Assembly: GCF_003260015.1 (NCBI RefSeq)
Contig: NZ_QCXS01000003.1
Span: 610,315-674,314, forward strand
Direction: 5' to 3'
Source: Nakamurella deserti
GTDB lineage: Bacteria > Actinomycetota > Actinomycetes > Mycobacteriales > Nakamurellaceae
Length of the DNA stretch: 64,000 nt
In this document: positions 8,045 through 62,428 of the stretch, piece after piece
Layout of the letters: each line of letters starts with the position of its first letter
Numbering within the stretch: position 1 is the stretch's first letter
The notes under the pieces: model-generated
What the model was told of the DNA's origin: nothing
Databases searched by the model: none
The model's input: only the letters and a program-made list of their open reading frames with translations
Made by a program: the position numbers and the translations under genes

Positions 8045-8217
8045 AGCTTCTCGCGCTTCAGGTAGGCGACCAGCTGCTCCGGGTTCGGGCCGGGGATGAC
8101 CGAGACGAGCTCCCAGCCGTCCTCCCCCCAGGTGTCCAGGATCTGCTTGGTGACGTGACTGATCAGCGGGATGGTGGCGTATTCCCAGCTACGACGGGCG
8201 GGGGTGGGCTGTGTCAT
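8041..8217 (-). CDS. DUF4177-type small protein
   Basis: A 58-residue protein starting MTQPTPARRSWEYATIPL, with ILDTWGEDGWELVSVIPGP in the middle and LVAYLKREKL at the end; this is the DUF4177 pattern (W-E-Y ... L-N-x-x-G-x-x-G-W-E-L-V). It is coupled to ridA by GTGA and matches the unnumbered mycobacterial gene Rv3678A next to ridA. Function unknown. Confidence 0.85.
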   Translation of the reverse strand: MTQPTPARRSWEYATIPLISHVTKQILDTWGEDGWELVSVIPGPNPEQLVAYLKREKL

Positions 8218-8303
8218 GCCCTGACCCTATCGGCCCGGTGCGCGGACGGCCGGGACACCGTCGGCGGGCGCGCACCGCCCCGGGACCGGCACAATCACCG
8301 GTC

Positions 8304-8552
8304 ATGGAGTGGTGGCGATGGGCGGCGGCGGCCGGGGCGACGGTGTTGATCCTGCTGCTGCTGGCCCTGCGGTTCGACACGCTCAAGGACCGCCGCGGCG
8401 GCAGTGCCGGCACCGCCGCCCGCCGGCTGGCGCCGTGGCTGCTGCTGGTGCCGGTGGTGGTGCTGGCCGCCTTCGTCGGTCCCTGGTGGCTGGCCGCGGT
8501 CGTCGTCGCGCTGCCGGCCGTCACGCTGCTGGCCATGGCCGCCGTCGACTGA
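8304..8552 (+). CDS. small membrane protein
   Basis: An 82-residue protein with two or three hydrophobic helices (ATVLILLLLAL, APWLLLVPVVVLAAFV, LAAVVVALPAVTLLAMAA) joined by a short basic loop (FDTLKDRRGG). It stands between the divergent DUF4177 gene and the ArsA pair. A CACAAT hexamer ends eight bases before ATG 8304, suggesting a leaderless transcript. Function unknown. Confidence 0.6.
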   Translation: MEWWRWAAAAGATVLILLLLALRFDTLKDRRGGSAGTAARRLAPWLLLVPVVVLAAFVGPWWLAAVVVALPAVTLLAMAAVD

Positions 8553-8599
8553 ACCGCGCGCTCCGCCGCCCGGCGGGTGCGCCCACTACGCTGACCGGC

Positions 8600-9604
8600 A
8601 TGGCCGCGACCGCTGAGCTCTGGCCGGACGCGGCCCGTCGAGCCCGTCTGCACATCGTCTCCGGCAAGGGCGGCACCGGGAAGACCACCGTCGCCGCCGC
8701 GCTGGCCATCGCGCTCGCCGCGGGCGGCAAGCGGGTGCTGCTGGTGGAGGTCGAGGAACGCCAGGCCATCGCCCGGTTGTTCGACCTGCCGCCGCTGCCC
8801 TACGAGGAGCGCAAGATCGCGGTGGCCGCCGAGGGCGGCGAGGTCCGTGCGCTGGCCATCGACGTGGAGGCCGCGTTGATGGAGTACTTCGCGATGTTCT
8901 ACAACCTCGGCTTCGCCGGCCGGTCGCTGAAGAAGATGGGTGCCGTCGAGTTCGCGACCACCCTCGCCCCGGGGCTGCGGGACGTGCTGCTGACCGGCAA
9001 GACCAAGGAGTGCGTCACCCGCACCGAGCGCGACGGCTCCTGCGTCTACGACGCCGTGGTGATGGATGCCCCGCCGACGGGCCGGGTGGTGTCGTTCCTC
9101 AACGTCACGGTCGCGATGGCCGACCTCGCCCGCAAGGGCCCGATCCGCAACCAGGCCGACGGGGTCGTGGAGCTGCTGCACTCCCCCGACACGATGGTCC
9201 ACCTGGTGACGTTGCTGCAGGACATGCCGGTCACCGAGACGATCGAGGCCGTCGCGGGCCTCGGGGAGGTCGGGCTGCAGGTCGGCACGCTGATCGTGAA
9301 CGCCGCGACCGGCGCGCACCTGGCCGACGCGGCGCTGCTGCCCGCGGCGGAGGGCCGGCTCGACCCCGAGCGGCTCGCCGCCGGGCTGCACAGCGGCGGC
9401 ATCACCGCCACCCCCGCCCTCGTCGACGGGCTGATCGAGGAGGCCACCCTGCACGCCACCAAGGTCGTCGCCGAACGCGAGTGCGCCGAGACCGTCGCCG
9501 CCCAGGGGCTGCCGGTGATCACGCTGCCGTTCCTGGCCGACGGTGCCGACCTGGGCGGGCTGTACGAGCTGGCCGACCACCTGCACGCGCAGGGCGTCCG
9601 ATGA
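8600..9604 (+). CDS. ArsA/GET3-like ATPase, first of pair (BagA-like)
   Basis: A 334-residue deviant-Walker P-loop ATPase: HIVSGKGGTGKTTVAAALA near residue 20 and VVMDAPPTGRVVSFL as switch II. It matches Rv3679, one of the two mycobacterial ArsA homologues described as a heteromeric complex (BagA/BagB). No arsenite-binding cysteines are arranged as in ArsA, and no arsB is nearby, so arsenic export is unlikely. A TACGCT -10-like hexamer lies seven bases before ATG 8600, consistent with leaderless start. Its TGA overlaps the next ATG. Confidence 0.85.
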   Translation: MAATAELWPDAARRARLHIVSGKGGTGKTTVAAALAIALAAGGKRVLLVEVEERQAIARLFDLPPLPYEERKIAVAAEGGEVRALAIDVEAALMEYFAMFYNLGFAGRSLKKMGAVEFATTLAPGLRDVLLTGKTKECVTRTERDGSCVYDAVVMDAPPTGRVVSFLNVTVAMADLARKGPIRNQADGVVELLHSPDTMVHLVTLLQDMPVTETIEAVAGLGEVGLQVGTLIVNAATGAHLADAALLPAAEGRLDPERLAAGLHSGGITATPALVDGLIEEATLHATKVVAERECAETVAAQGLPVITLPFLADGADLGGLYELADHLHAQGVR

Positions 9605-10695
9605 CCCGGTTGGATCTCGACGAGCTGATCGGGGACCCGGCGACCAGGATCATCGTGACCTGCGGCTCGGGTGGGGTGGGCAAGACCACGACCGCCGCGT
9701 CGATCGCCCTGCGCGCCGCCGACCGGGGGCGGACCACCGCGGTGCTGACCATCGACCCGGCGAAGCGGCTGGCCCAGTCGCTGGGCCTGGACGAGCTCGA
9801 CAACACCCCACGGCGGGTGGAGACGGGCAGTGCGGGCGAGCTCTGGGCGATGATGCTCGACACCCGGCGGACCTTCGACGACATGGTGTCGGCGCACTCG
9901 ACGCCGCAGCGGGCGGAGCAGATCTTCGCCAATCCCTTCTACCAGACCATCTCCAGCTCCTTCAGCGGGACGCAGGAGTACATGGCGATGGAGAAGCTGG
10001 GCCGACTGGCCGCCACCGGGCAGTGGGATCTGATCGTGGTGGACACCCCGCCGAGCCGGTCGGCACTGGACTTCCTGGACGCGCCGCAGCGGCTCTCGTC
10101 GTTCCTGGACGGGCGCACCATCAAGCTGCTGACCAGTCCCGGGCGCGGCGTCATCAAGGTCGTGGGCGTCGGGTTCAACCTGTTCGCCAAGGCCGTGAGC
10201 ACGGTCATCGGCGGACAGATGCTCACCGACGCCGCGAAGTTCGTGGCGTTGTTCGAGGACATGTTCGGCGGCTTCCGGGCCCGTGCCGAATCGACGTACG
10301 AGCTGCTCCGGGACGAGGGGACCACGTTCCTCGTGGTGGCCACCCCGGAGTCGGACGCGTTGCGTGAAGCGTCTTACTTCGCCGATCGGCTGGGCGCCGA
10401 AGACATGCCGTTGGCCGGCATCGTGCTCAACCGCACGCACCCGCCGTTCGCGGAACTGTCGGGGCAGCAGGCCGAGGCCGCCGCGGAGAAGCTCGACGGC
10501 GTCGCCCCGCTGACCTCGGCGGTGCTGCGGCTGCACGCCGAGCGGATGACCGTGCACGGCAACGAGACCCGGATGACGGCGCGTTTCGTGCGGGCGCATC
10601 CGGGGCTCCCGAGCGTGTCGGTGCCCGCGACGGCCACCGACGTCCACGACCTGGACGCGCTGCGGGCGATCGGCGATCGGCTCGCCGCCGGCTGA
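9601..10695 (+). CDS. ArsA/GET3-like ATPase, second of pair (BagB-like)
   Basis: A 364-residue partner of the preceding ATPase, started by ATGA overlap. The P-loop is VTCGSGGVGKTTTAASIA and the switch is IVVDTPPSRSALDFLDAP; further ArsA-family blocks are TIDPAKRLAQSLGL and NRTHPPFA. It matches Rv3680. The two proteins probably form a complex, as in mycobacteria; client or role in this organism is unknown. The stop codon lies inside the downstream terminator stem. Confidence 0.85.
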   Translation: MTRLDLDELIGDPATRIIVTCGSGGVGKTTTAASIALRAADRGRTTAVLTIDPAKRLAQSLGLDELDNTPRRVETGSAGELWAMMLDTRRTFDDMVSAHSTPQRAEQIFANPFYQTISSSFSGTQEYMAMEKLGRLAATGQWDLIVVDTPPSRSALDFLDAPQRLSSFLDGRTIKLLTSPGRGVIKVVGVGFNLFAKAVSTVIGGQMLTDAAKFVALFEDMFGGFRARAESTYELLRDEGTTFLVVATPESDALREASYFADRLGAEDMPLAGIVLNRTHPPFAELSGQQAEAAAEKLDGVAPLTSAVLRLHAERMTVHGNETRMTARFVRAHPGLPSVSVPATATDVHDLDALRAIGDRLAAG

Positions 10696-49065: not shown

Positions 49066-49071
49066 TAGGGT
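49066..49071 (+). promoter_or_regulatory. -10 box of the retron-like RNA
   Basis: TAGGGT, the same hexamer as before the leuA leader. It ends six bases before the left arm of the 16-bp inverted repeat, so transcription should start at its first base. No good -35 is visible. Confidence 0.5.
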
Positions 49072-49077
49072 GGGGCC

Positions 49078-49243
49078 GATGCGGCGGGGGTGGGCGAGAA
49101 CGCCGGCCGGCGACGGCCCGGCCGCTCCGGGGTACCCCCGGGGCCGGAACACCGCAGCAAGCACGACCGTGCAGGCACGTCGTGGCGCTCCGCGCCAGGT
49201 TGTGCCCGCCCAGCAGGGACAGGTCGACCACCCCCGCCGCATC
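49078..49243 (+). ncRNA. candidate retron msr-msd RNA with a1/a2 inverted repeat
   Basis: GATGCGGCGGGGGTGG (49078-49093) and CCACCCCCGCCGCATC (49228-49243) are perfectly complementary over 16 bases and frame 134 bases. Inside are hairpins: GGCG-AGAA-CGCC (49093-49104); CCGGCC..CCGGGG-TAC-CCCCGGGGCCGG (49118-49147, one 3-base bulge); CACGAC.GTGC/GCACGTCGTG (49162-49184); GGCGC-TCC-GCGCC (49184-49196). The right arm ends 13 bases before the reverse transcriptase start. Retron RNAs have this plan: a1 and a2 pair the two ends, msr lies first, msd second. The branching G and the msr/msd border cannot be fixed by eye. Confidence 0.72.
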
Positions 49244-49256
49244 ACGGACCTGCGCC

Positions 49257-50582
49257 GTGTCGGCTGAGACCGCGCTCGCATCCGCGCTGGCAGAAGCGAT
49301 GCTCGCCGGCACCTGGCACCGCCGCGGCCTGATCCGGGCCATGAGTGCGACGCTCAACCGAACCAGCCGACGGGTCCGATGGGTGCGGCCGCTCGCCGTC
49401 GAGGTGCTGGCCGCCTACCCGCACCCACCCCTGGACCGGCCCCGCGAGCTGGCCGGGTTCGTCGGCACCACGCCCGCGGTGCAGCGGGCCCTGGGTCGGC
49501 GGCGACCGCCGAAGGCCCTGGTCCGGGTCGCCACCCCGACCACCACGGTGTCCCGGCCGTTCCCGACGCCGCGGGTCGACCACGTCGCGCAGCTGGCGGA
49601 ATTCCTCGCGGTCGACCCGGACGAACTGGTCCTGCTCGCCGACCCGCAGAGCCGGGCCCGCCGCGCGCCGTCCCGGCGAATCGCCCACTACCGCTACCAC
49701 TGGCTCGACAAACCGGCGGGGGCACGGCTTCTCGAGGCTCCGAAGCCGAGACTCAAGGCGCTGCAACGGAAGGTGCTCGACGGCCTGCTGACGCCGATCC
49801 CGGTGCACCCGGCCGCCCACGGCTTCGTCCCCGGCCGGTCGGCGGTCACCGGCGCCGCACCGCACGTCGGCGCGGCGGTGGTCGTCACGGTCGATCTCGA
49901 GCACTTCTTCGCCGCCGTCCGCGCCGGCCGGGTGTGGGGCGTGCTGCGCGCCGCCGGCTACCCGGAGCCGGTGGCGCACCTGCTGACCGCGCTGACCACC
50001 CACGCCAGCCCGGTCGCGACGCTGAGCGCGATGCCGCCCGGACCCGACCGGGGACGTGACTTCCGGCTGCGCCGCCGGCTGGCCACCCCGCACCTGCCGC
50101 AGGGCGCACCGACGTCACCGCAGTTGGCGAACCTCGTGGCGTTCTCGCTGGACCGCCGGCTCGACGCCTACGCCCGCGCGGCGGGCGTCACCTACACCCG
50201 CTACGCCGACGACCTGACGTTCTCCGGCGGACCGGAGCTCAGCCGGGCGGCCGAGGCCCTGCTGCATGCCGTGGACGGCATCGTGCGCGCAGCCGGCTAC
50301 CGGCTGAATCCGGCCAAGACCCGGATCCGCCGGTCCCACGAACGCCAGTCGGTGACGGGCATCGTCGTCAACCGGCACACCACCCTCGCGCGGCCCGAGT
50401 ACGACCGGCTCCGCGCGGTCCTGCACGACTGCGTGACCAACGGGCCGGAGGCGGCCGACCGGAACGGGCACGACGACTTCCGGGCGCACCTGCTCGGCCG
50501 GATCAGCTGGGTGGCGGCGTTGCATCCCGCGCGGGGTGCCCGCCTGCGGGCCGCATTCGACGCTGTCGCATGGGGTGACTGA
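49257..50582 (+). CDS. retron-type reverse transcriptase
   Basis: A 441-residue RT. RT blocks: AHGFVPGRSAVTGAAPHVG, VVVTVDLEHFFAAV, PHLPQGAPTSPQLANLVAFSLD, the catalytic TRYADDLTFSG (Y316-D319), and RRSHERQSVTGIVVN. The VTG triplet (366-368) and the position of GAAPH (199-203, in place of NAxxH) are retron marks. About 145 residues precede the RT core, more than in classical retrons, with no fold I recognise. There is no maturase or HNH domain as in group II introns and no template/variable repeat as in DGRs. GTG 49257 gives the shortest gap to the RNA; an earlier in-frame ATG at 49182 would lie inside the RNA. Confidence 0.85.
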   Translation: MSAETALASALAEAMLAGTWHRRGLIRAMSATLNRTSRRVRWVRPLAVEVLAAYPHPPLDRPRELAGFVGTTPAVQRALGRRRPPKALVRVATPTTTVSRPFPTPRVDHVAQLAEFLAVDPDELVLLADPQSRARRAPSRRIAHYRYHWLDKPAGARLLEAPKPRLKALQRKVLDGLLTPIPVHPAAHGFVPGRSAVTGAAPHVGAAVVVTVDLEHFFAAVRAGRVWGVLRAAGYPEPVAHLLTALTTHASPVATLSAMPPGPDRGRDFRLRRRLATPHLPQGAPTSPQLANLVAFSLDRRLDAYARAAGVTYTRYADDLTFSGGPELSRAAEALLHAVDGIVRAAGYRLNPAKTRIRRSHERQSVTGIVVNRHTTLARPEYDRLRAVLHDCVTNGPEAADRNGHDDFRAHLLGRISWVAALHPARGARLRAAFDAVAWGD

Positions 50583-50629: not shown

Positions 50630-50794
50630 ATGGGCCACCACGACGACGCCACCGAGCACCCGCTCACCGACGAGCACACGCAGTCCGACACCGCCGCGGA
50701 GCCTGCCGTCAAGGACGGCACCGACCCCAACGACCTGGTGGTGTCCGGTGACATCGACCAGGAGATGCTCGAGGACGACATCGCCGAGCGCTGA
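50630..50794 (+). CDS. 54-residue acidic small protein
   Basis: MGHHDDATEHPLTDEH, then a spacer and GDIDQEMLEDDIAER at the end; strongly acidic with no Cys and no hydrophobic helix. GAGGGAGA stands before the ATG and codon use is good, so I think it is real. It follows the reverse transcriptase by 47 bases. It may be a retron accessory or an unrelated small protein. Confidence 0.6.
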   Translation: MGHHDDATEHPLTDEHTQSDTAAEPAVKDGTDPNDLVVSGDIDQEMLEDDIAER

Positions 50795-50808
50795 GCCGTC
50801 GTCGGCGG

Positions 50809-59180: not shown

Positions 59181-59304
59181 ACGGTCACGAGTGCCAGCAA
59201 CAAGCCCCGGCTAGCTGGCCGGCAACCCTCCTGTGCGGCGGGGTGCTCCGGGTGACGACCAGGTGGCGGACCGTCCCGGTCCGGCGCAAGCGCACTGTTG
59301 CCGA
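59181..59304 (+). ncRNA. SAM-IV-type riboswitch before metQ
   Basis: Matches the SAM-I/SAM-IV core: P1 GGTC/GACC (59183/59257), P2 CCAGC/GCTGG (59194/59214), CCCGG/CCGGG long pairing (59206/59248), and conserved AACAAGCCCCGG, GGCAACCCTCC and GGGGTGCTCCGGGTGA. A 3' CAAGCGCACTG segment is shared with the second copy at 62312. It should turn off the operon when SAM is high. The remaining leader to 59532 has the GGAGG site of metQ but no gene. Confidence 0.85.
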
Positions 59305-62311: not shown

Positions 62312-62428
62312 TAGGTAATGAGTGTCGGCGACAAGCCCTGGCTGGCCGACCAGCAACCCTCTCTGGTGGTGGGGTGCTCCAGGTGACGACCCGGCCGGGT
62401 CCCGTCGGTACCCGGCAAGCACAGTGGG
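62312..62428 (+). ncRNA. SAM-IV-type riboswitch before the monooxygenase genes
   Basis: Same plan as the 59181 copy: P2 GTCGGC/GCCGAC (62324/62345), long pairing CCTGG/CCAGG (62337/62379), conserved GACAAGCCCTGG, CAGCAACCCTC and GGGGTGCTCCAGGTGACGACC. Both stems differ in sequence from the first copy but stay paired (compensatory changes). A TACCTT -10-like box at 62301-62306 fits a start at about 62313. 62429-62615 contains only the leader and ribosome-binding site. Confidence 0.85.

Follow-up and report, generated by a model that had tools for sequence, protein, structure and literature searches.

A retron-like reverse transcriptase and its adjoining RNA in Nakamurella deserti, with relatives in six bacterial phyla

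The locus, its RNA and its reverse transcriptase

The window, the stretch of 64,000 nucleotides of Nakamurella deserti that was analysed, holds a reverse transcriptase (RT) gene and, directly before it, an RNA element framed by two complementary arms, a1 and a2 (Table 1). The arms are complementary at 16/16 nt exactly where an earlier note on this DNA had placed them, and the stem is prolonged past one mismatch, by CGA/TCG, to 20 nt with 95% complementarity. This is the sole perfect 16-nt inverted repeat with a spacing of 50-250 nt in the 64-kb window searched, the number expected by chance under a first-order Markov model of its sequence being 0.025 per 64 kb. For the region 49070-49256, the predicted fold has an energy of -120 kcal/mol (z = -4.1), a value equalled by none of 200 shuffles. 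The RT gene starts 13 nt past a2 and its product carries the YADD and VTG motifs, which bears out what the note had read there; an alternative, earlier in-frame GTG lies within the RNA at 49182. With a G+C content of 0.72-0.76 for the RT gene and 0.67-0.77 for its surroundings, the note's description of the DNA as of host composition is a fair one. A small open frame of 55 aa without a Pfam match lies just past the RT (50631-50795), and two SAM-IV riboswitches, 3 kb apart on the + strand, are found at 59183-59298 and 62314-62427 of the window.

Table 1. Features of the element in window coordinates
Feature	Position	Strand	Remarks
-10 box, TAGGGT	49066..49071	+	From the sequence; would set the transcription start at or just before a1
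a1 arm	49078..49097	+	Perfect over 49078-49093; relatives keep the pairs with both bases changed
Presumed branching guanosine (2'-OH primer)	49098	+	First base past the a1/a2 stem; function presumed from known retrons
msr hairpin	49125..49143	+	CTCCGGGG-TAC-CCCCGGGG; from alignments of relatives
Presumed msd template	49150..49223	+	About 74 nt copied to DNA; both ends approximate
msd hairpin	49171..49209	+	Tip C-TCC-G, triloop 49189-49191; C-GGA-G as cDNA
a2 arm	49224..49243	+	Perfect over 49228-49243; stem continues to 49224
Retron-type RT	49257..50582	+	441 aa; GTG start; GAAPH 199-203, YADD 316-319, VTG 366-368
N-terminal extension of the RT	49257..49571	+	About 100 residues; unmatched in Pfam and solved structures

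Between the arms, a fold of the single sequence gives at least four hairpins, as the note had it, but conservation upholds just two of these internal hairpins, msr and msd. The inner GGGG/CCCC of the msr hairpin is invariant in the 58-row training alignment described below. Of the 99 aligned RNAs, 97 have a G directly after a1, mostly in the contexts GAGA, GAGG, GAGC, and AAGC (83/99); a passage in PMC6868368 gives TAGC, CAGA, CAGC, GAGC, and ACGC as contexts of known branching guanosines. By analogy, this near-invariant G following the stem fits the branching guanosine of retrons. For the presumed msd template, analogy puts the start (5') of the DNA opposite the base preceding the a2 stem, and the 3' end is assumed. 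No Rfam family matches this RNA, even at an E-value of 10.

The msd hairpin measures 38-41 nt in 97/99 RNAs. Its tip reads C-TNC-G, and hence C-GNA-G in the cDNA, in 62/99 as counted automatically, a few off-centre cases among them; a looser count finds CTNCG anywhere in the central 18 nt of 69/99, as against 9.7% of shuffles, with 28 of those 69 reading CTGCG, mostly in the stem rather than the tip, and both counts being inflated by shared descent. An RNA UNCG tetraloop needs CTNCGG, which occurs in 0/99 central stretches. As DNA, the sequence GCGAAGC with its GAA loop is described in PMC6582339 as an extraordinarily stable hairpin, and titles cited there and in PMC10527192 speak of its nuclease resistance. 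The tip differs in most Burkholderia and Paraburkholderia members. GNA-loop DNA mini-hairpins in general are known for stability and nuclease resistance of the kind described for GCGAAGC. Further, if the DNA copy must pair too, G-U pairs are expected to be avoided in msd: the conserved columns hold 16 G-U to 167 A-U pairs there, the corresponding arm counts being 58 and 252 (p = 0.003), whereas single-sequence folds reveal no such avoidance in msd (p = 0.40). On this mixed evidence, G-U avoidance might be a second sign of selection at the DNA level, short of proof.

Upstream of a1 lies the -10 box already seen in the note, and its place is conserved: a TAnnnT motif falls wholly inside the final 14 nt 5' of a1 in 48 of 63 repeat-bearing loci, with 0.9 expected. 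A scan for E. coli-type promoters returned 0 sites and did not pick up the TAGGGT box; an E. coli-type terminator scan likewise returned none.

The RT is the sole Pfam RVT_1 match of its genome. Its best profiles in PADLOC-DB 2.0.0 are RT_other (PDLC02949) at 570 bits and RT_outgroup (PDLC03740, 'retron') at 540 bits, over residues 4-439 of 441, with RT_XIII third at 306 bits. When solved sequences were compared with a profile of 54 family members, Ec86 came first (E 7e-59), and the best 14 comprised 12 named retron proteins and two named merely as RNA-directed DNA polymerase. The region Y motif VTG is present, and the RT falls in the retron clade. Region X reads GAAPH where retrons have NAXXH, the H being invariant among the 54 members, the A nearly so, and the N replaced; NAXXH is stated in PMC4244168 to be present in 59% of retron RTs. 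The NCBIfam retron models match below their cut-offs (166 of 600, 164 of 235, and 154 of 450 bits). For the N-terminal extension, no counterpart was seen in Pfam or solved structures; in the comparison with solved sequences no best stretch begins before profile position 141, and in the alignment inspected none begins before 102.

The RNA among relatives

Relatives of the RT were sampled by scanning one genome per species, giving at least 80 loci of a larger family. In an ungapped search upstream of these genes, the arms of many loci differ in sequence with their complementarity kept, and the best repeat beats 10 shuffles in 54/80 loci, so that a bare repeat search is a weak test. Separately, 54 of the 80 loci were hand-picked for their repeat and joined with the window and eight loci from congeners and the order (nine loci on the other strand were left out of these additions) to give 63, from which the near copies L005, L019, and L035 and the weak fits L076 and L077 were removed. 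The resulting 58-row alignment, A1, has some sequence changed on both sides at 24 of 30 predicted pairs. Part of the arm signal in A1 comes from selection, its loci having been chosen for a repeat; this choice favours the arms, not the msr and msd helices.

A covariance model, R1, was built from A1 (58 upstream regions, the window included) and run on the window and 99 loci. At E <= 4e-6 it recovers the RNA next to the RT gene in 95 of these 100 sources, with weak matches in three (L076, L077, L079) and none beside the RT in two (L078, L089). The earlier note had held that homologous RTs without the repeat would speak against its reading; with sequence and structure scored together, nearly all the homologous loci have the RNA, an outcome in the note's favour. 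The genome of L089 (G010), a congener, holds two copies of the RNA, one of them weak, at 2-4 kb upstream of its RT. There (locus L106, G010:C24:208000-222000, ~8143-9978, minus strand) an ABC transporter, recognized by eye, separates RNA and RT, and the small genes between the RNA copies resemble, again by eye, a toxin-antitoxin set. Two loci from a plasmid collection unused earlier, from Dietzia and Tsukamurella, carry the RNA directly 5' of the annotated RT.

A larger alignment, A5, holds 99 RNAs, of which 41 lie outside A1, many being close kin of A1 rows; it was fitted to R1 and hence leans towards it. Within it, 96.3% of cells are paired, a share that drops to 73.2% for shuffles and to 41-46% for slid controls; 600 cells are changed on both sides, as against 149 in shuffles; and double-sided changes occur at 25 of 30 base pairs. 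At the level of these alignments, covariation is seen in all three helices, namely a1/a2, msr, and msd.

RNA and RT also travel together at the level of genomes. Among 61 genomes (that of the window and its relatives), 20 have the RT (E <= 0.001), and exactly those 20 have the RNA (E <= 0.1); a sample of 197 genomes from the class has eight with the RT (E <= 1e-40), which are also the eight with the RNA (E <= 0.01). At these thresholds, neither sample, the two overlapping in some genomes, has a genome with one of the pair alone. The distance from RNA end to RT start has a median of 15 nt over 94 loci, start codons being approximate, and lies between -80 and +150 nt in 80/94, the farthest being 266 nt (L090) and 699 nt (L024).

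Distribution, chromosomal site and neighbouring genes

Members of the family are found in Actinomycetota, Pseudomonadota, Planctomycetota, Acidobacteriota, Verrucomicrobiota, and Myxococcota. The note had spoken of an actinobacterial retron, a label too narrow by five phyla. In a tree of 123 RTs, made by a quick method and with some long branches, 91 are labelled as having a clear R1 RNA, and this label takes five changes, as against 28.6 when shuffled; the grouping mostly matches host families, but the congeners L098 and L101 sit in a different clade. Of 17 genomes of the genus, 11 carry the RT, that of the window included, the others being 41-64% identical to the window RT. The second gene upstream of the element in the window is leuA (2-isopropylmalate synthase), which in the 10 RT-bearing congeners is 81-85% identical and, in 10/10, lies at least 120 kb from the RT or on another contig; of the window's other flanking genes, heuristic gene calls place none next to the RT in these congeners. 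Since the RT tree largely follows the hosts while leuA and the other flanks are not kept, inheritance looks to be mostly within lineages and the site not fixed. The note's word 'stable' accordingly suits the line of descent for the most part, not the chromosomal site, which is not common to the congeners.

Searches of phage records gave 12 matches, none above 32.6% identity. Plasmid records matching the RT number 78; six of the 25 listed reach 40% identity or more (three from Burkholderia and one each from Dietzia, Tsukamurella, and Methylobacterium). The Dietzia and Tsukamurella regions have no annotated neighbour in common. The latter (L147, Tsukamurella tyrosinosolvens 'plasmid 5') has RT and RNA on a stretch also holding polA and rpsA, which suggests that this record is a chromosomal piece. 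Interrupted RT copies were also encountered, with an in-frame stop in the genome of L042, broken frames in L003 and L060, and a short RT open frame beside an intact RNA in G278:C4.

We searched the neighbourhoods for a linked partner. The downstream gene is on the same strand in 47/97 loci and within 60 nt in 27. Of 95 downstream genes, 84 were scanned, 11 having been dropped by hand as short, overlapping the RT, or near copies, and no Pfam family recurs in more than 3/84. Of 38 defence-library families, the 25 listed include RT pieces, in two members, and single matches. Clustering of neighbours in the window and 102 loci, over flanks of 5 kb (1.5 kb for L082-L103) with heuristic gene calls, also covered the upstream genes, for which it was the one test applied. 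Its largest non-RT clusters (15/103, of which two members are ABC transporters, and 7/103, of which one is a short-chain dehydrogenase) look generic, are scattered in position and strand, and were rejected as partners. Neither a linked effector gene nor a fused effector domain was found beside the RT. This is not new in itself, because retrons without a clear proximal effector have been stated before in passages of PMC8867640 and, for retron-Bth1, of PMC12548924.

Identity, possible working, and relation to known retrons

The clade of the RT, the RNA in 95/100 sources, its co-occurrence with the RT, the covariation, the G after a1, and the C-TNC-G tip of the msd lend strong support to the note's central claim, and the locus is very probably a retron in its anatomy, an a1-msr-msd-a2 RNA with an RT, for which msDNA is predicted. 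Against this count the GAAPH in place of NAXXH, the sub-threshold NCBIfam scores, the Rfam result, the lack of a linked effector, the two sources lacking the RNA beside the RT and the three with weak matches, the mixed outcome on G-U pairs, and the arms in A1, which are partly an effect of selection.

We propose that one transcript starting at a1 would carry a1-msr-msd-a2 and continue into the RT gene. Pairing of a1 with a2 would put G49098 at the end of the stem, and the RT would bind msr via its GGGG/CCCC hairpin; the 2'-OH of G49098 would then prime synthesis, the RT copying some 70-80 nt of msd towards msr. The product would be a branched RNA-DNA molecule, its DNA a single hairpin tipped by C-GGA-G. 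No effector being linked, either the N-terminal domain of the RT or an unlinked host protein would act. By analogy with the usual role of retrons, the DNA/RNA/RT complex may sense phage interference without a linked effector, a use that we consider a serious candidate, if somewhat short of probable. A more specific version, which we think somewhat unlikely, is a two-part retron comprising solely the RNA and an RT with its own N-terminal domain, present in six phyla and inherited mostly inside host families, with the DNA tip as its conserved feature; in it the msDNA, capped by a nuclease-resistant C-GNA-G loop, would be the working part and that domain the effector or a dock for a host protein.

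Several other readings were weighed. That the repeat has no connection with the RT, being a stem with a regulatory role or a palindrome arisen by chance in GC-rich DNA, gains something from the greater likelihood of repeats at high G+C and from the 26/80 relatives in which the bare repeat search fails to beat 10 shuffles, but the rarity of such repeats under the Markov model, the presence of RNA and RT in identical genomes in both samples, and the base-pair covariation in relatives leave it a negligible probability; covariation and co-occurrence refute it for practical purposes. An RT with a non-coding RNA could also act as a DRT defence system (DRT2, DRT9, DRT10) by protein-primed or rolling synthesis rather than as a retron, and those systems likewise pair an RT with an adjoining RNA and may have no other genes; the Drt2 model also matches, though weakly (33 bits against a cut-off of 390). 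Here, however, the RT groups with retron RTs, and the framing arms, the near-invariant G after a1, and the separate msd hairpin are retron anatomy; we regard this alternative as extremely unlikely. It is very unlikely, too, that the window holds a decayed or silent relic: broken copies do exist elsewhere (L042, L003, L060, G278, and G010 with an ABC transporter between RNA and RT) and no sigma-70 promoter is recognized by E. coli rules, but here the frame is whole with YADD and VTG present, the arms are perfect, and the -10 box is in its conserved place.

The remaining alternative concerns function only, namely that the element is part of a tripartite defence retron with its effector gene at another place in the genome. 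It draws on the statement in PMC12548924 that retrons typically have an RT, an RNA, and a toxic effector. Yet no family is common among the 84 downstream neighbours or in the flanks examined, and so widely spread an element would need the right partner in every host; this arrangement strikes us as unlikely.

The retron reading has consequences beyond this locus. Most retrons studied so far are interpreted as a set of RNA, RT, and effector. In this family the first two are kept together in six phyla with no third gene seen to stay alongside, which makes it well suited to asking what role msDNA has when no effector is linked. With the covariance model R1, the RNA can be found in genomes, and the family offers retrons of high-GC Gram-positive bacteria.

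Comparison with described systems qualifies the novelty of the element. The note had suggested a type not yet described; however, the PADLOC profiles RT_other and RT_outgroup already fit, and on its sequence the window RT is a member of a retron clade present in that library, which gives it a name alone, without type number or effector. Among the matches listed in a search of open-licence papers by title and start of abstract, none describes this RNA, which is weak evidence. A passage in PMC6868368 has the validated retrons of 2019 in Gamma- and Deltaproteobacteria only, with actinobacterial ones as predictions.

The next profile, RT_XIII, is not the best match of the window RT, at 306 bits versus 570 for RT_other, and leads to the myxobacteria. 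Among 140 Myxococcota genomes, 32 have an RT match; of the 30 loci taken, four have an R1 RNA at E < 1e-5 (L116, which repeats L045, and L117, L118, and L137). Running R1 on L119-L136 gave none at E <= 0.1, L121 standing at 0.16. Six other myxococcal RTs were scanned, five fitting RT_XIII best and one RT-Protease_XI. The RTs fitting RT_XIII (L120, L122, L125, L127, L135) are 34-47% identical to the window RT over the matched part, and several have a framing repeat upstream, as here. In L120-L123 and L125, three of them scanned as RT_XIII, 193-207 nt lie between the arms and the msd hairpin is long; their msr hairpin also differs from the window type. According to a passage in PMC6868368, Mx162-like myxococcal retrons have an extended N-terminus and are apparently inherited vertically, and the scanned RT_XIII loci are probably retrons of this kind.

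The closest solved RT by profile is that of retron Ec86 (Eco1). Ec86 has a known linked effector, and nothing in it matches the first 100 residues of the window RT in the alignment; its NATPH aligns with the GAAPH of the window RT, and the VTG motif is common to both.
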